Assembly (NCBI RefSeq): GCF_001887355.1
Contig: NZ_MPIN01000021.1
Span: forward strand, 1 to 64,000
Direction: 5' to 3'
DNA length: 64,000 bases
DNA from: Cystobacter ferrugineus
Lineage (GTDB): Bacteria; Myxococcota; Myxococcia; Myxococcales; Myxococcaceae
Shown here: piece by piece, positions 44,023 to 52,117 of the stretch
Layout of the letters: each line of letters begins with the position of its first letter
How positions within the stretch are numbered: the first letter of the stretch is position 1
Position numbers and translations under genes: made by a program
The notes under the pieces: model-generated
Told to the model about the DNA's origin: nothing
The model's database searches: none
Seen by the model: the letters and a program-made list of their open reading frames with translations, nothing else

Positions 44023-45237
44023 TCACGGCATCTCGGTCTGACCCTGACGGCGCAGGAACGTCGGGATGTCGAACTGATCCTCGTCCAGGGGCAGGGCCGC
44101 GTCCTTCACCACCGCGGTGCGGCTGGACAGCGAGCGGCCCTCGGCCTGGGCCAGGGTCCGTGAGCCAGCCTTGGCGGGCACCAGGCTGGCCACCTCCTCG
44201 CGCGCCGCGGTCAGCGAGGCGGGCGTGGGGCGCGTGGTGACGGGCACCTGCACCACCGGCGCCGGCTGGCGCACCTTGGCGTCGCGCGAGACGAAGCCCG
44301 TGGCGATGATGGTGATCTTCACCTCGTCCGAGATGTTCTCGTCGATGAGCGAGCCGAAGATGATCTCCGCGTCCGGGTCCGCCGCGTCGTGCACCAGCGT
44401 GAGCGCCTCGTTGACCTCCTGGAGGGTCATGTCGCGTCCGCCGGTGATGTTGATGAGCAGGCCGGTGGCGCCGTCGATGGAGATGTCCTCGAGCAGCGGG
44501 CTGGAGATGGCCTGCTGCATGGCGCTGAGCGCGCGCTTGTCGCCGGTGGCCTGACCGGTGCCCATGAGCGCCAGACCCTTGTCGCTCATGATGGTCTTCA
44601 CGTCGGCGAAGTCCACGTTGATGTAGCCGTGGTACTGGATGAGATCGGAGATGCCCTGCACGGCGTTGAGGAGCACCTCATCGGCGCGCTTGAAGGTCTC
44701 CAGGAGCGGCATGGGGGCGGTGCTCAGCGTGAGCAGGCGCTGGTTGGGGATGGTGATGAGCGTGTCCACCGCGGCCTTGAGCTCCACGAGGCCCTGCTCC
44801 GCCTGCTTGCGGCGCTTGTTGCCCTCGAAGAGGAAGGGCTTGGTCACCACGCCCACGGTGAGGCAACCCAGGCTCTTGGCGATGTCCGCGATGATGGGCG
44901 CCGCGCCCGTCCCCGTGCCACCACCCATGCCGGCGGTGACGAACACCATGTCCGCGCCCTCGATCATCGAGGCGATCTGATCGCGCGACTCGAGCGCGGC
45001 CTCACGGCCCATCTCCGGGTTGGCGCCCGCGCCCAGGCCCTTCGTCAACGTCTGTCCGAGCTGCAGCCGCGTCGGTGCCTTGCTCGCCGCCAGTGCCTGT
45101 ACATCGGTGTTGGCGGCAATGAAGTCGACACGCTCAAGCTTCGCCATGATCATCGTGTTGACCGCGTTGCATCCAGCGCCCCCCACGCCGATGACGCGAA
45201 TCTTGGCGGCCTGCTTGTTCTGCTCGAACTGGTCCAT
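44023..45237 (-). CDS. ftsZ: Cell division protein FtsZ
   Basis: The 404-residue tubulin-like GTPase forms the division ring. It starts [20 protein letters not shown] with AAGGAAAC upstream; an upstream in-frame start is rejected. The tubulin signature GGGTGTG is at residues 105-111. A linker of about 60 residues leads to the C-terminal peptide DIPTFLRRQ, which binds FtsA and other partners. It is last in the dcw order but cut off from ftsA by an opposite-strand kinase gene, so it must have its own promoter in the 506-base region to the right. Confidence 0.97.
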
Positions 45238-45743
45238 GAGTTTCCTTCTTTTCGCGCGTGCCCGCGCGCGCACCTGCAAACACCATCTTCAGCAAGTCGC
45301 GATCTTTGGCAAGTTCTGAGCTACGAACATGTAGCGCCTCGTCGCATCGCCAAGTCGTCACAGGCACTTACGCGCAAGCCCCACCAGAGCAGCCGTGCGA
45401 CGTGGTGGGAGCATCACACCTCTTGACTCGCGCCACGAGCATTTCGGAGCACGAAGCACTCTTCATCACGTACCGCCGCAGTCCATGAATGTGGACTCGC
45501 TGCACGCCACCGCCGCGCTCGACATCTCCGTCTACCCGTGAGGGGGATTCCACTGCGCGCCGGTTCTCGTGGCCCTTCTACATGAAGGTGTGGCCCACGC
45601 GGCAAGAGAACAATCGAGGAGCGCGCCAGGCGCGACAGAAAACCCAACAGAGCATCACCAGGACCCTGGCTTTTCGAGCGCGAGGCCAAGTGCTCCGGGG
45701 CATAAGGAGCGGAGCACCGCGAGACGCTCCATGGGGTGAATGC
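45238..45743. other. Divergent regulatory region between ftsZ and the hybrid kinase gene
   Basis: About 500 bases with no convincing gene. They must hold the ftsZ promoter(s) leftward and the kinase promoter rightward. Two small hairpins are visible: AGTCCA/TGGACT around a 6-base loop at 45480-45497, and GCTAC/GTAGC near 45330. A continuous frame runs from 45489 into the kinase gene, but its sequence up to about 45740 is low-complexity Arg/Ser/Pro and does not look coding. Confidence 0.5.
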
Positions 45744-48700
45744 TTGGACGAAGGACTGACTGGCGGGGGGGAGATGCTGGCGCGCATCCGCGCCTTCGAC
45801 TGGACCCGGACCCCGCTCGGTCCTCTCGAGCGCTGGCCCCAGAGCCTGAAGACGGCGGTGAGCATCTGCCTGGACTCACGCTTCCCCATGATCGTCCGCT
45901 GGGGCGAGGAACTCATCGCGCTCTACAACGACGCCTATATCCCCATCCTCGGCCGCAAGCACCCCGGAGCGCTCGGCAGTCCCGGACTGTCGCGGGCGTT
46001 GTGGGGAGACCCGGAGACCCGCACCATCATCGAGCCCATGTTGCGCGGCGTGCTCGCCCGGGGCGAGGCCACCTGGTCCAACGATCAGCTCATCATCTTC
46101 CAGCGCCACGGCTTCGCCGAGGAGGCCTACCTCACCTTCTCCTATAGCCCCATCCGCGTGGAGTCCGGAGAGGTGGGCGGCGTCTTCACCGCCGTGAGCG
46201 AAACGACCCGGAAGGTGCTGGGCGAGCGGCGCCTGCGCGTGCTGCGCGAGCTGTCGGCACGCGCGTCCGCGGAGACCACCCTGCCGGGCACCTACGCGGC
46301 GGCCCTGTCCGTGCTCGGCTCCGCTTCACACGACGTACCCTTCTGCCTGCTGTACATGCTCGACGCGGCGGGGACGACGGCCACCCTCGCGGGACTGGGC
46401 GGCGACGTTCCCAACGAGGCGGCACCCAGGCGCATCGCGGTGCATGCGCTCGAGGCCCCATGGCCCCTGACACGGGCCTGGACCGGAGCCGTGGAGGTAG
46501 AGCTCGCGCGGCTGGGACCCTGGGCGAGCGCCCTCCCCGGAGGCCCCTGGCCCGAGCCAGCACGTCAGGCCCTGCTGCTGCCCATCCGTCCCACCGGCGA
46601 GAAGAACCCCTCGGGATTCCTGGTCGCCGGCACCAGCCCCCGGCTGCCGCTGGACGACAACTACCGCGGCTTCCTCTCCCAGGTGGCCGACCACCTCTCC
46701 CACGCCATCGCCCGGGTGCATGCCTACGAGGAAGAGCGCCGACGCGCCGAGTCCCTCGCCGAGCTGGACCGCGCGAAGACCGTCTTCTTCAGCAACGTGA
46801 GCCATGAGTTCCGCACTCCCCTCACGCTCATGCTCGGCCCCCTGGAGGAGCTGCGCTCGGGAGTCCTCGGCACCTTGACGCCTCCCCAACACGCGCGGCT
46901 CGACACGCTCCATCGCAACGCCCTGCGGCTGCTCAAGCTCGTCAACTCGCTGCTGGACTTCTCTCGCCTCGAGGCCGGGCGCGTCCAGGCCCGCTTCGTT
47001 CCCACGGACCTGGCCGGGCTCACCCGCGGCCTCGCGAGCGCCTTCCGCTCCGCCACCGAGCAGGCCGGCCTCACGCTGACGATCGACTGTCCCACGCTGC
47101 CCGAGCCCCTCTACGTGGACCGGGACTCGTGGGAGAAGATCGTCCTCAACCTGCTCTCCAATGCCTTCAAGTTCACCTTCGAGGGCGGCATCACGGTGAG
47201 GCTCCGGCCAGACGACGGCCGGGCCGTGCTCGAAGTGGAGGACACGGGCACGGGCATCCCCGCCGAGGCCCTGCCCCACCTCTTCGAGCGCTTCTATCGG
47301 GTGGAAGGGGCGCGCAGCCGAACCCAGGAGGGCAGTGGCATCGGGCTCGCGCTGGTGCAGGAGCTGGTGAAGCTGCACGGCGGCACCCTCTCCGTGGCGA
47401 GCACCCCGGGCCAGGGCACGCGCTTCACGGTGATGCTCCCCACCGGCCGCGCGCACCTGCCCGCGGAGCGCATCGGCGACACCCCGGCCCCACGCTCGAG
47501 CGACTCCAGCGCCGCGCCCTTCGTGGACGAGGCCCTGCGCGGGCTGCCCCGCCCGCGGACGCCGCCCGCCGAGGAAACCGCGGGCCAGGGCCGCATCCTG
47601 CTGGTCGACGACACGCCGGACATGCGCGGGTACGTGTCCGGGTTGCTGCTCGGCGCGGGCCACACCGTGGAGACCGTCTCGGATGGGCTCCAGGCGCTCG
47701 CGGCCGTGCGGGAGCGTCGGCCGGATCTCATCCTCACGGACGCGATGATGCCCGGGCTCGATGGCTTCGGCCTGCTGCGCGAGCTGCGCGCGAGCGAGCG
47801 CACCCGCACGCTGCCCGTCATCCTGCTCTCGGCGCGCGCGGGCGAGGAGTCGCGCGTGGAGGGCCTGAGCCAGGGCGCGGACGACTACCTGGTGAAGCCC
47901 TTCAGCGCGCGCGAGCTGCTCACGCGCGTGCGCACGCAGCTCGAGCTGTCTCGGCTGCGCGCCACCTTGAAGAGCGAGAAGTTCCGCGCGTTCGTCCTCA
48001 ACGTCCCCGGCGCCGTGTACGAGTGCCAGCCCGAATCTCCCTGGCGCTTCAGCTTCATGAGCGAGCCGGTGCTCGCCCTCACGGGTCATTCCGCCTCCGA
48101 GTTCCTCGCGGGGCTGACCTGGGCGCCCCTCGTCCACCCCGAGGATCTCTCCTCCGTGGAGACGCGGATCGCCCAGGCGGTGGAGCAACACGAACCCTAC
48201 GAACTGGAGTACCGCCTGCGCCACGCGGACGGAACCACGCGCTGGGTCTCGGAGGTCGGGCGGGCCGTCTACGACGAGGCCGGCCAGGCCTATTGCCTCG
48301 AGGGCATCATCTTCGACATCACCGAGCGCAAGGCGGCCGAGGAGTCCCTCCAGCACTACCAGCGGCAGTTGACCCGCACCCTCGCGGAGAACGCCACCTC
48401 GGCCCTGTACATGACGGATGGCGAGAGCCGCTGCACCTATATGAACCCCGCGGCCGAGCGGATGACGGGTCACGTCTTCGCCGACGTCCAGGGCCAGCGG
48501 CTCCATGACTTCATCCACCCGTCCCAGCCAGGGGCGGCGGTCTGCACCGGCACCTGTGCCCTCGAGCGGTTGCTCACCGGACCGGGAACCCGGGGCGGCA
48601 CGCACGAGGATCTCTTCGTGCGCACGTCGGGAACCGCCCTGCCCGTGGCCGTGGCGGCGAGCCCCCTGCTGCGCGAGGGCCAGCGCGTGGGCACCGTGCT

Positions 48701-49871
48701 CGAGGCGAGGGATCTCACCGGGCAGAAGCGGGCCGAGGCGGCGTTGCTGGAGGCCCAGCACCGCAAGGATGAATTCCTGGCGATGCTCGCCCACGAGCTG
48801 CGCAACCCCATGGCGCCCATACGCGCCGCGCTCAAGCTGATCGCCGCCCGCGCCGCCCTCGATGACAAGGGACGCCACGCCATCGAGATCATCGAGCGGC
48901 AGACGACGAACCTCGCGCGGCTCGTGGACGATCTGCTCGATGTGTCGCGCATCACCCGGGGACACATCGAGCTGCGCAAGACGCTCGTGGAACTGCCCGC
49001 CATCATCGAGAGCGCCCTGCAATCCGTGCAGCCCCTGCTCGACGAGCGGCGCCACGAGGTGAGCGTCACCCTGCCCCGCAAGCCCCCGCGCACCTTCGGG
49101 GATGCCATCCGGCTCGAGCAGATCGTCGTCAACCTGCTCACCAACGCCGCCAAGTACACCGAGCCCGGGGGCACCCTGCGCGTGGGCCTGGAGCGCGCGG
49201 GCGCCGAAGCGGAGATCCGCGTGAAGGACACGGGCATCGGCATCTCTCCGGAGATGCTCGGCCGCGTGTTCAACCTCTTCGAACAGGCCGAGCGCCCCCT
49301 CGATCGCTCCCAGGGAGGATTGGGCATCGGGCTCACGATGGTGAAGAACCTCGTCGAGATGCACGGAGGCACCATCGAGGCCAGGAGCGAGGGGCTCGGT
49401 CAGGGCAGCGAGTTCATCGTCCGGCTGCCGCTCGCCGAGGAGCCCAGCGCGCCGCGACCCGCCCCAGACACGCGGGTGGATCCCCCGCCCTCGAGCGCCC
49501 GGCGCATCCTCGTGGTGGACGACAACCTGGATGCCGCCGACACCCTCGCCGAGCTGCTACAGACCTGGGAGCACACCGTCTGGCAGGCCCACGACGGGCT
49601 CGCGGCGCTCCAGGCCGTGGAAGAGCATCGCCCGGACATCGTCCTGCTCGACATCGGACTGCCGGGAATGGATGGCTACGAGGTGGCGCGCCGGCTGCGC
49701 TCGGGGCCGCTCGGCCAGCAACTCACCCTCGTGGCGCTCACCGGCTATGGCCAGGCGAGCGATCGCCACCGCGCGTTGGAGGCGGGGTTCGATCAGCACT
49801 TCGTCAAACCCGTGGACATCGACGGGCTGCAGAAGTTCATCGAACAGCGGCCGGCCCGCGGTGCGCGGTAG
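45744..49871 (+). CDS. Double hybrid sensor histidine kinase (two kinase-receiver modules)
   Basis: The roughly 1375-residue protein has, in order: a PAS-like N-terminal domain (about 12-155, FDWTRTPLGPLERWPQSLKT), a GAF-like domain (about 165-320), a first kinase core with His354 (SNVSHEFRTPL), a receiver at about 617-735 (ILLVDDTPDM, LTDAMMPG), two PAS domains (about 745-990), a second kinase core (LAHELRNPM, His near 1017, plus ATPase) and a final receiver (about 1254-1372, ILVVDDNLDA, LLDIGLPG). No membrane segment, so it senses a cytoplasmic signal. TTG at 45744 is the chosen start; ATG at 45774 is possible. It sits on the opposite strand between ftsA and ftsZ. Confidence 0.88.
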   Translation: MDEGLTGGGEMLARIRAFDWTRTPLGPLERWPQSLKTAVSICLDSRFPMIVRWGEELIALYNDAYIPILGRKHPGALGSPGLSRALWGDPETRTIIEPMLRGVLARGEATWSNDQLIIFQRHGFAEEAYLTFSYSPIRVESGEVGGVFTAVSETTRKVLGERRLRVLRELSARASAETTLPGTYAAALSVLGSASHDVPFCLLYMLDAAGTTATLAGLGGDVPNEAAPRRIAVHALEAPWPLTRAWTGAVEVELARLGPWASALPGGPWPEPARQALLLPIRPTGEKNPSGFLVAGTSPRLPLDDNYRGFLSQVADHLSHAIARVHAYEEERRRAESLAELDRAKTVFFSNVSHEFRTPLTLMLGPLEELRSGVLGTLTPPQHARLDTLHRNALRLLKLVNSLLDFSRLEAGRVQARFVPTDLAGLTRGLASAFRSATEQAGLTLTIDCPTLPEPLYVDRDSWEKIVLNLLSNAFKFTFEGGITVRLRPDDGRAVLEVEDTGTGIPAEALPHLFERFYRVEGARSRTQEGSGIGLALVQELVKLHGGTLSVASTPGQGTRFTVMLPTGRAHLPAERIGDTPAPRSSDSSAAPFVDEALRGLPRPRTPPAEETAGQGRILLVDDTPDMRGYVSGLLLGAGHTVETVSDGLQALAAVRERRPDLILTDAMMPGLDGFGLLRELRASERTRTLPVILLSARAGEESRVEGLSQGADDYLVKPFSARELLTRVRTQLELSRLRATLKSEKFRAFVLNVPGAVYECQPESPWRFSFMSEPVLALTGHSASEFLAGLTWAPLVHPEDLSSVETRIAQAVEQHEPYELEYRLRHADGTTRWVSEVGRAVYDEAGQAYCLEGIIFDITERKAAEESLQHYQRQLTRTLAENATSALYMTDGESRCTYMNPAAERMTGHVFADVQGQRLHDFIHPSQPGAAVCTGTCALERLLTGPGTRGGTHEDLFVRTSGTALPVAVAASPLLREGQRVGTVLEARDLTGQKRAEAALLEAQHRKDEFLAMLAHELRNPMAPIRAALKLIAARAALDDKGRHAIEIIERQTTNLARLVDDLLDVSRITRGHIELRKTLVELPAIIESALQSVQPLLDERRHEVSVTLPRKPPRTFGDAIRLEQIVVNLLTNAAKYTEPGGTLRVGLERAGAEAEIRVKDTGIGISPEMLGRVFNLFEQAERPLDRSQGGLGIGLTMVKNLVEMHGGTIEARSEGLGQGSEFIVRLPLAEEPSAPRPAPDTRVDPPPSSARRILVVDDNLDAADTLAELLQTWEHTVWQAHDGLAALQAVEEHRPDIVLLDIGLPGMDGYEVARRLRSGPLGQQLTLVALTGYGQASDRHRALEAGFDQHFVKPVDIDGLQKFIEQRPARGAR

Positions 49872-49883
49872 GCACGCGGGCTT

Positions 49884-51116
49884 CTAGAAGATGTCCTCGA
49901 GCCACTCGCGCATGCGGCCCTTGACCTTCTTGTAGACGTTCTCGTCGCGGATGCGGAACATCTTCCGGTCCAGGTGCCGGGCGCCATAGACGACCAGGCC
50001 CACGCCGGTGGCGTACATGGGGCTCTTCACCACGTCCACCAGCCCGCCGATGCCGCGCGGCATGCCCCGGCGCACCGGCAGCCCGATGACCTCCTCGGCC
50101 AGCTCCGGCATGCCCGCCAGCAGCGTGGAGCCACCGGTGATGACCACGCCCGAGGCGAGCAGATCCTCGTAGCCGCACTTCTGGATCTCCCGGTGCACGA
50201 GCTGGAAGATCTCCTCCACGCGCGGCTCCAGGATTTCACAGAGGATCTGCCGGCCGAGCACGCGCGGCTGACGGCCGCCCACGCTGGGCACCTCGATGGT
50301 CTCGTCCTTGTCCACGAGCGAGGCCAGGGCGCAGCCGAACTTCTGCTTGATGCGCTCGGCCTCGTGGGCCGGGGTGCGCAGGCCGATGGCGATGTCGCTC
50401 GTCAGGTTGTTGCCACCCAGGGCGATGACGGCGGTGTGCACGATGGAGCCGCCGGAGAAGATGGCGATGTCGGTGGTGCCCCCGCCGATGTCGACGAGGC
50501 ACACGCCCAGCTCCTTCTCGTCCTCGCCCAGCACCGCCTCGGCCGAGGCGAGCGGCTGCAGGACGATGTCCGCCACGTTGAGGCCCGTGCGGTTGGCGCA
50601 CTTGACGATGTTCTGCGCGCTGGACACGGCGCCGGTGACGATGTGCACCTTGGCCTCCAGCCGCACGCCCGCCATGCCCAGGGGCTCCTTGATGCCACCC
50701 TGGTCATCGATGATGAACTCCTGGGGCAGCACGTGGATGACCTCGCGGTCGAGCGGGATGGCCACGGCCTTGGCGGCGTCGATGACGCGCGCGATGTCCG
50801 CCTCGCGCACCTCCTTGTCCTTCACCGCGACGATGCCCTGCGAGTTGAAGCCCTTGATGTGGCCACCGGCGATGCCCGTGTACACATGGGAGATCTCCGC
50901 GCCGGCCATCAGCTCGGCCTCCTCCACCGCCCGGCGGATGGAGGACACGGTCGCCTCGATGTTGACCACCACGCCCTTGCGCAGACCCTTCGACGGGTGC
51001 GTGCCGATGCCGATGATGTCGATCCCGCTGTCGGTCAGCTCCCCGACAATCGCGCAGATCTTCGTCGTGCCGATGTCGAGGCCGACGATGATCTCCCCGG
51101 ACTTCTGCTTCGCCAT
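49884..51116 (-). CDS. ftsA: Cell division protein FtsA
   Basis: The 410-residue actin-like ATPase tethers FtsZ to the inner membrane. It starts MAKQKSGEIIVGLDIGTTKI; phosphate-binding motifs are IVGLDIGTTKICAIVG and VCLVDIGGGTTDIAIF, with GVVITGGSTLLAGM near the C-terminus. The last residues (RMREWLEDIF) are the amphipathic membrane-binding helix. It is 47 bases after ftsQ and ends 12 bases from the convergent kinase gene. Confidence 0.96.
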   Translation of the reverse strand: MAKQKSGEIIVGLDIGTTKICAIVGELTDSGIDIIGIGTHPSKGLRKGVVVNIEATVSSIRRAVEEAELMAGAEISHVYTGIAGGHIKGFNSQGIVAVKDKEVREADIARVIDAAKAVAIPLDREVIHVLPQEFIIDDQGGIKEPLGMAGVRLEAKVHIVTGAVSSAQNIVKCANRTGLNVADIVLQPLASAEAVLGEDEKELGVCLVDIGGGTTDIAIFSGGSIVHTAVIALGGNNLTSDIAIGLRTPAHEAERIKQKFGCALASLVDKDETIEVPSVGGRQPRVLGRQILCEILEPRVEEIFQLVHREIQKCGYEDLLASGVVITGGSTLLAGMPELAEEVIGLPVRRGMPRGIGGLVDVVKSPMYATGVGLVVYGARHLDRKMFRIRDENVYKKVKGRMREWLEDIF

Positions 51117-51163: not shown

Positions 51164-52018
51164 CTACTGCGCCGACGTCCCGTTCCTCTCGGACACGGGA
51201 CTCGAAATCTTGACCGCCACCCAGCCGGGCCGCGCCCGGTTGTCCAGGTGGATGACCTCCGCGGACAGCCCCTTGCCCTTGAGCCCCTCGCGCACCCGCG
51301 CGAGCCGCTGGAGCTTCTCCTCCATCGCCCCCTCCCCCATCCGCACCTGCGTTCCATCCGACAACACCAACACCAGCCCGTCGTCCGCCACGCGCACCTC
51401 GCTCAGGCGCTCGCTCTTGCCGGGGCGCGCGGACGTGTACGCCGCCACCATGGCCAGGGCCTCGAGCAGGCTCTCGTGCGCCTTCGCCTCGTCGGCGAGG
51501 TAGGCCTCCCGGTCCACCCCGGTGACGAGCGGCAGGTCCAACCCGTCCTCGGGCTGCAGCCGCTTGAAGGGCTTGCCCTCCTCGTTGAGGAGGTACAGAT
51601 CGTTGAGCACCACCAGCGCCACCGGCGCGTGCTCGGAAACTTCCACGGACACGCTGGCGGGGAAGTGACGCCGCACCGCCACGTCGCGCACCCAGGGGTG
51701 GGTGGCCATGGCGCGCTCGAGCGAGTCCACGTCCAGGGTCCACAGGTTCTGCCCCACCGTGAGCCCGGACAGCTTGAGCAGCTCGCCCGGGTGCGCCCGG
51801 TGCAACCCGCTGAAGGACGTCTCCTTGAGCAGGAAGAAGGGCGAGGTGAGCGCCCAGCGCCGCAGCTCGATGCCGCCCCAGAGCAGGGCGCATGTCAGAC
51901 CGGTGAGGACAATGGCCTTGAGCAACCCAGGTCCATGCGCGCGCACGGCTCCCGCCATGGCCGCCTTCTTCTGGGCGACGTCCTGATGACGCCGGTTCTT
52001 GCTCTTGCCGAATGCCAT
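51164..52018 (-). CDS. ftsQ: Cell division protein FtsQ
   Basis: The 284-residue bitopic protein has a basic cytoplasmic tail, one membrane helix (about 33-52, LLKAIVLTGLTCALLWGGIE), a POTRA domain (about 62-130, FFLLKETSFSGLHRAHPGEL) and a beta domain. It scaffolds FtsB/FtsL and regulates septal peptidoglycan synthesis. Upstream of it is a 127-base gap with hairpins, unusual in this otherwise packed cluster; downstream is ftsA. Confidence 0.92.
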   Translation of the reverse strand: MAFGKSKNRRHQDVAQKKAAMAGAVRAHGPGLLKAIVLTGLTCALLWGGIELRRWALTSPFFLLKETSFSGLHRAHPGELLKLSGLTVGQNLWTLDVDSLERAMATHPWVRDVAVRRHFPASVSVEVSEHAPVALVVLNDLYLLNEEGKPFKRLQPEDGLDLPLVTGVDREAYLADEAKAHESLLEALAMVAAYTSARPGKSERLSEVRVADDGLVLVLSDGTQVRMGEGAMEEKLQRLARVREGLKGKGLSAEVIHLDNRARPGWVAVKISSPVSERNGTSAQ

Positions 52019-52070
52019 GATGTGCGCCGGCGCATGCTGCGCGCGGTTGGATCTCCACGCCAGTTTTTGG

Positions 52071-52117
52071 CTACAGACACGTCGCTGTAGTCCGGCTTTC
52101 CTCGGGGAGGAGGCCGG
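52071..52117. promoter_or_regulatory. Two adjacent hairpins in the ddl-ftsQ gap
   Basis: CTACAG/CTGTAG (6 bp, 52071-52090) lies next to a larger stem, CCGGC-TT-TCCTC pairing with GAGGA-GGCCGG (52092-52117). They lie in the 127-base gap between ddl and ftsQ. They may terminate or attenuate the upstream mur transcript or mark a separate ftsQA promoter region. Confidence 0.4.

Follow-up and report, generated by a model that had tools for sequence, protein, structure and literature searches.

The window analysed here, a 64,000-nucleotide stretch of a Cystobacter ferrugineus contig (NZ_MPIN01000021.1, positions 1 to 64,000), carries the division genes ftsQ, ftsA and ftsZ on one strand and, between the latter two, a gene for a double hybrid histidine kinase on the other (Table 1). 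Adjacency of ftsA and ftsZ is widely conserved in bacteria; in the dcw cluster of the window the two genes are not contiguous but 4,646 bp apart, and the kinase open reading frame is all that fills the gap. A Pfam search with the ftsQ product gave no match. The kinase gene is divergent from ftsZ and convergent with ftsA, and a mere 12 bp (49872-49883) separate the stop codons of the convergent pair. This spacer is devoid of a clear terminator, with only weak hairpins between the two stop codons (z of -0.66 and -1.74), so that the kinase and ftsA transcripts may run into each other; between the same two genes of the congener G034 there is a strong hairpin that resembles a terminator, T tract included, and that the window lacks. 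An antisense RNA at ftsA-ftsZ, StfZ, is described for E. coli in the accessible part of a previous report (PMC9628754), and with a kinase convergent with ftsA, opposite-strand transcription is possible in the window, too, with the difference that the strand in question is protein-coding.

Table 1. Genes and putative regulatory features of the ftsQ-ftsA-ftsZ region in the window.
Feature	Coordinates	Strand	Basis or remark
ftsZ	44023..45237	-	Pfam Tubulin and FtsZ_C; single match in genome
-10-like hexamer GAAGAT, putative ftsZ promoter (inferred), after a 16-nt spacer	45285..45290	-	weak match to TATAAT
-35-like hexamer TTGCCA, putative ftsZ promoter (inferred)	45307..45312	-	fixed spacing to the -10-like hexamer
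Composite element GCTAC-N6-GTAGC-N2-ARWACTTGC upstream of ftsZ	45309..45335	-	in 83 of 93 genomes at 17/19 positions or more
ftsZ-proximal leader	45240..45450	-	87% identical to the adhesin-ftsZ intergenic region of G034 (221 alignment columns)
Double hybrid histidine kinase, 1,365 aa	45774..49871	+	Pfam, motifs, AlphaFold, dN/dS
ftsA	49884..51116	-	Pfam FtsA and SHS2_FTSA; convergent with the kinase
ftsQ	51164..52018	-	named by dcw order, position and size; upstream of ftsA
-10-like hexamer CAGCAT downstream of the ftsQ element (inferred)	52034..52039	-	conserved CAGCATGcG in ftsQ-type sequences
Second element copy upstream of ftsQ, core GTAGCCAAAAACTGGC	52059..52085	-	core search and post-ddl scan

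The kinase reading frame is open from 45489, and its most likely start is the ATG at 45774, from where the orthologues of G032-G034 align. An initial annotation of this DNA had begun the gene at an in-frame TTG (45744) and described a 506-base promoter region common to kinase and ftsZ; the shared intergenic stretch holds, yet it measures 536 bp when counted from the ATG. That an intact double hybrid histidine kinase lies between ftsA and ftsZ could be confirmed. Pfam domains follow each other in the order GAF_2, HisKA-HATPase_c-Response_reg, PAS_3, PAS_4 and HisKA-HATPase_c-Response_reg, with the GAF_2 match falling just below the cut-off (28.3 vs 28.6 bits). Both HisKA and both HATPase_c domains are present, with SHEFRTP at 343, AHELRNP at 1006 and the N and G boxes, and each of the two Response_reg domains has the acidic pocket, the Asp and the Lys. 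These kinase and receiver motifs are conserved in the orthologues, REC2 of G032 included. An AlphaFold model of residues 1-330, built on an alignment with 21 relatives (mean pLDDT 90.7), has an alpha/beta, PAS-like N-terminal domain and a second domain, and in Foldseek its top PDB matches, DosP and phytochromes among them, belong to the PAS/GAF proteins, with low overall TM-scores (0.29-0.40 of the query). Since the modelled N-terminus thus comprises two domains with PAS/GAF proteins as best matches, we arrive, together with Pfam, at about four sensor domains; the about three PAS/GAF sensors noted before were right as to their presence and too low as to their number.

By all appearances, the kinase gene is intact and under selection. 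Its dN/dS is 0.22-0.26 across the three closest orthologues (G000, G032 and G033), and since such purifying selection acts on it, the kinase is taken to be functional. When domains were compared between G000 and G033, the last receiver had the lowest dN/dS (0.06) and the first receiver the highest (0.43), and the weaker constraint on the latter counts against our main reading. Orphan hybrid histidine kinases of myxobacteria have the same domain composition and make up a large sensor family; the window kinase differs from them by its two kinase-receiver modules in one chain and by its own position. Among the matches listed for 58 family genomes and a draw of 146 phylum genomes, no other kinase orthologue was found, the best non-orthologue reaching 52%.

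An ftsZ search in 96 genomes from the GTDB family of the window gave a match in 94, and the ftsZ surroundings of the 93 besides the window were retrieved. We refer to seven genera (g1, g3, g5, g6, g7, g8 and g19; 63 genomes) as the crown and to the other 31 genomes as non-crown. In all 52 crown genomes measured, ftsA and ftsZ are split by 4.6-25.4 kb (49 within a single stretch, 4.65-16.0 kb; the window, 4.6 kb; G003 and G006 across two stretches, 20.2 and 25.4 kb), and in all 30 non-crown genomes measured they are compact (-1 to 224 bp). In G001, which stands beside the crown in the tree, the distance is 180 bp. Twelve of the 94 genomes are outside this count: in G005, G020, G027, G040, G056, G061, G078 and G079 the adhesin gene described below adjoins ftsZ and ftsA is outside the stretch, in G004 and G007 ftsA was not reached, and in G074 and G082 the contig ends. 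Named loci agree with the family pattern in part. The Myxococcus and Corallococcus loci with both genes have them 7.1-9.5 kb apart and three Anaeromyxobacter loci 20-92 bp apart; those of Archangium violaceum and A. lansinium are without ftsA within the 5-10 kb retrieved, and two MAGs labelled Archangium sp. (L035, L036) have the genes close together and belong to another genus, g4. In a FastTree tree of FtsA, FtsZ and Ddl (80 taxa, after removal of 16 genomes with at most 700 aligned residues), the 50 crown tips fall together without intruders, but with weak support (0.37, and 0.638 for the crown plus G001), and this weakness of the tree behind a single crown origin of the split counts against our main reading. 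Firm nodes are those of genus g1 (0.995), of three kinase-only genomes (0.993) and of g1 with g3 (0.997).

What fills the gap in most of the crown, and in G034, is a gene of the type of M. xanthus MXAN_5598, likewise a large non-division gene between ftsA and ftsZ. According to the accessible parts of previous work, the MXAN_5598 protein comprises, beside a large adhesin region, an internal MYXO-CTERM, a barrel and OmpA domains (PMC11980579), and it is an OmpA-domain protein among vesicle proteins (PMC4158809). The former, a 2025 paper, suggested for this gene that attachment may be tied to the cell cycle and, in its accessible part, gives the location next to ftsA and ftsZ in one sentence, with neither a family-wide history nor a promoter element. 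The window differs from M. xanthus: no adhesin-OmpA gene of this type is present between its ftsA and ftsZ, and the kinase on the opposite strand is there instead. Among the matches listed, the best barrel match in the window's own genome reaches 54% and is on another contig. The barrel part of the giant gene lies on the ftsZ strand directly before ftsZ in 54 of the 62 crown genomes with coverage, and before ftsZ in none of the non-crown genomes retrieved; the eight crown genomes lacking it there are G000, G032, G033 and five of the six g3 genomes. Two translated examples (2,672 and 3,679 aa) consist of Ig- or cadherin-type repeats, TSP3 repeats, a barrel region and a C-terminal OmpA domain, and by our own reading the protein would also have an internal cysteine-transmembrane-arginine stretch. 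Between relatives, the frame by ftsZ varies from ~1,900 to >5,000 aa, contig ends included (L114, L122-L128, L132-L161).

A different content was observed in G002 (genus g3), whose 12.9-kb gap includes a piece of an MgsA-type ATPase, a cyclic-nucleotide-binding protein, a PF00144 hydrolase and two immunity-type proteins, with no Pfam match for four of the ten proteins tested. This gap looks like a turnover hotspot. The immunity-type proteins are of the TsiV and Imm11 kinds (L116, 3338-14752).

Upstream of ftsZ, a composite element precedes the promoter-like hexamers listed in Table 1. When the 250 nt upstream of ftsZ were scanned in 93 genomes at a threshold of 17 of 19 positions, 64 genomes had a perfect match, 16 a score of 18 and three a score of 17; the other 10 scored 13 or less, and the maximum in 1,860 dinucleotide shuffles was 15. 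The element was found in all 62 crown and in 21 of 31 non-crown genomes, the latter with ftsA and ftsZ 81-224 bp apart. Because it occurs in these compact genomes as well as throughout the crown, the element predates the split, and a separate ftsZ promoter probably existed before the two genes came apart. The absence of the element from 10 of the 93 genomes counts against our main reading. Six loci outside the family, including three of Anaeromyxobacter, score 10-11. The hexamer 16 nt after TTGCnn is GATGAT in 58 of the 83 positive genomes, GAAGAT in 10 and another one in 15. A generic scan of 45200-45800 for sigma-70 promoters and terminators returned none, so that it is conservation on which the promoter assignment rests; Rfam had no match at 44900-46000. 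A hairpin of terminator type, with T's after it, is present in G001 between ftsA and the element. Farther upstream in the window (45360-45431, minus strand), the crown-only boxes GCGAGTCAAG (59 of 62 genomes) and CGTAAGT (55 of 62) were observed, neither of which occurs in non-crown genomes, and between them there is an inverted repeat, CCCACCA...TGGTGGG.

Besides, a second copy of the element precedes ftsQ. Its core, GTAGCNNARWACTKGC, occurs exactly twice in the 12-Mb genome of the window, before ftsZ and before ftsQ(A). In a core search across 145 genomes of the order (96 from the family and 49 others; counted by hand, with the reversed pattern as control), the core was present in 72 of the 96 family genomes (two copies in 53, three in one, one in 18) and in 2 of the 49 others, and the reversed control gave 10 matches in all 145. 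Most crown relatives, too, have it at two places. The third core of G032 and the two matches outside the family gave no match to the window's FtsZ, FtsA, FtsQ or Ddl. We also considered a larger regulon for the core, which found no support, as one-mismatch matches were no more frequent than those of the control (G000 8/9, G032 8/10, G033 6/11, G034 3/3); since they do not exceed the controls, two real copies are the best estimate for the window genome. Within 260 nt after ddl, the ftsQ copy reaches at least 16/19 in 42 of 52 genomes. It is missing there in the other 10, which counts against our main reading; five of them (G054, G055, G065, G070 and G077) have two exact cores elsewhere (hand count). 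The ftsQ copies have the conserved CAGCAT 19 nt downstream, and they differ from the ftsZ copies in dyad spacing, which likewise counts against the main reading. In G007, the ftsQ and ftsZ elements are 44 kb apart.

How, then, did the arrangement of the window arise? The initial annotation had seen the kinase as an insertion that split ftsA from ftsZ and uncoupled ftsZ from the cluster. The insertion does extend beyond a single strain, given that all four genomes of the window's genus have the kinase at the locus, but conservation ends with the genus: among the stretches retrieved from other crown genomes, of which some cover the gap in part, no kinase was found at ftsA-ftsZ. The kinase as the cause of the split is rejected, since all 52 crown genomes measured are split and the stretches retrieved from other genera show no kinase at the locus; other crown genera have the split without it, and G034 has kinase and adhesin together. 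Nor is ftsZ newly uncoupled, its promoter-like element being there whether the genes are split or not. The order in G034 is ftsA, kinase (73%, opposite strand), adhesin and ftsZ, so that the arrangement of the window is most simply explained by a later loss of the adhesin gene. In line with Table 1 for the ftsZ side, the kinase side of the kinase-ftsZ interval matches the kinase-adhesin interval of G034 (80% over 41 columns), and ~280 bp in the middle have no clear match in G034, so that the deletion junction is not seen. Taken together, we consider it likely that the gap is old and permissive and the kinase a newcomer to it at the level of the genus. From the comparison of genomes, the ancestor of the crown would have separated ftsA and ftsZ, with a giant adhesin-MYXO-CTERM-barrel-OmpA gene now mostly in between; the hybrid kinase would have entered right after ftsA, convergently, in the ancestor of the window's genus; and the adhesin gene would have been lost in the lineage of G000, G032 and G033, which would have brought the kinase head-to-head with ftsZ. 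At the level of function, ftsZ would have tolerated the arrival of the kinase next door because of its own promoter, older than the split, and given the same core before ftsQ, a single regulator or promoter class probably governs both ftsQA and ftsZ irrespective of the genes in between. The reverse course, in which the genus ancestor had the kinase alone in the gap and the adhesin gene came to G034 secondarily, agrees with the absence of the adhesin gene from the locus in three of the four congeners, but is highly improbable in view of the adhesin barrels directly upstream of ftsZ in most of the crown and of the sister-genus genome G005, whose barrel next to ftsZ is 76% identical to that of G034. 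We find it very unlikely, too, that the kinase controls ftsZ, be it via the common intergenic region or a phosphorelay, and thereby links division to an environmental signal. The head-to-head position in three of the four congeners and a kinase that is functional by dN/dS and motifs would fit; however, the orthologue of G034 is ~11.8 kb away from ftsZ, other crown genomes lack a kinase copy at the locus within the stretches retrieved, the ftsZ leader is similar whether or not a kinase adjoins it, and the sensor type of the kinase has at least 14 matches in the window genome. Comparison of the genomes revealed no link between this orphan kinase and division. On the newcomer reading, the kinase is probably a functional passenger, an orphan in signalling that has no part in the transcription of ftsZ, while a role in division is possible, as is a regulation of both kinase and ftsZ from their common intergenic region.

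The paired element is, to our mind, the more interesting result. From the two copies we infer a regulator or promoter class common to ftsQA and ftsZ, and with such a common control, physical separation need not uncouple them; the core before ftsQ-ftsA may thus keep the separated division genes in step. Tentatively, and with slightly less than even confidence, we suggest a two-target division switch of the Myxococcaceae, in which one DNA-binding protein or sigma factor would act on an element upstream of ftsQ(A) and ftsZ only, so that the genes would be co-expressed despite tens of kilobases between them and the junction would be free for gene turnover. The element could be an activator site at a housekeeping promoter, or else be recognised by an alternative sigma factor (with an extended -35 and a -10 block): the block nearest to the -35, AAAACTKGC, is more alike between the ftsQ and ftsZ copies than the dyad is, which speaks for a sigma factor, but the upstream dyad suggests a dimeric protein, and we rate the sigma factor site as rather unlikely. 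An RNA hairpin in the two 5' leaders, instead of a DNA site at the promoter, appears more doubtful. Both copies do have A-rich and CTKGC blocks behind an inverted repeat, and the arm spacing varies between them in a way that RNA loops could tolerate; yet the spacing to the downstream -10-like hexamers is conserved, the arm pair is broken in several genomes (GTTGC in four g7 genomes, GCAAC in G011 and G012), and the Rfam search yielded nothing for such a hairpin.

A DNA site before ftsQA and ftsZ calls to mind CtrA, which has many targets, unlike the window motif with its two genomic copies. In Caulobacter, according to the accessible part of PMC3751295, the ftsZ and ftsQA promoters are both regulated by CtrA. 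The window resembles this system in having one type of site upstream of both the ftsQA and the ftsZ unit and differs from it in that the common element is GTAGCNNARWACTKGC and not the TTAA-N7-TTAA box of CtrA. Within the open-licence literature, as judged by titles and the beginnings of abstracts, no paper dealing with a promoter element of ftsZ or ftsQ in myxobacteria was found, and hence no description of the paired element. A family with broken adjacency, a preserved intermediate and a paired element that survived the break represents a testable case of common regulation replacing operon linkage, and offers a concrete lead to a division regulator in the group of the model multicellular bacterium M. 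xanthus. For the latter, public start-site data exist under the accession E-MTAB-11042, as stated in the accessible part of PMC8844925.

Two further loci deserve mention. In G045 (L219), ftsA and ftsZ abut (gap of -1) and the ftsZ element is missing, so that ftsZ may depend on an upstream promoter there; the ftsQ-type element after ddl is kept. Finally, a sequence titled Comamonas sp. KCTC 72670 (BNCN01000001.1, L008) encodes FtsZ and FtsA proteins 87% and 98% identical to those of the window, with the two genes 8.7 kb apart, and its organism label, Comamonas, looks wrong.
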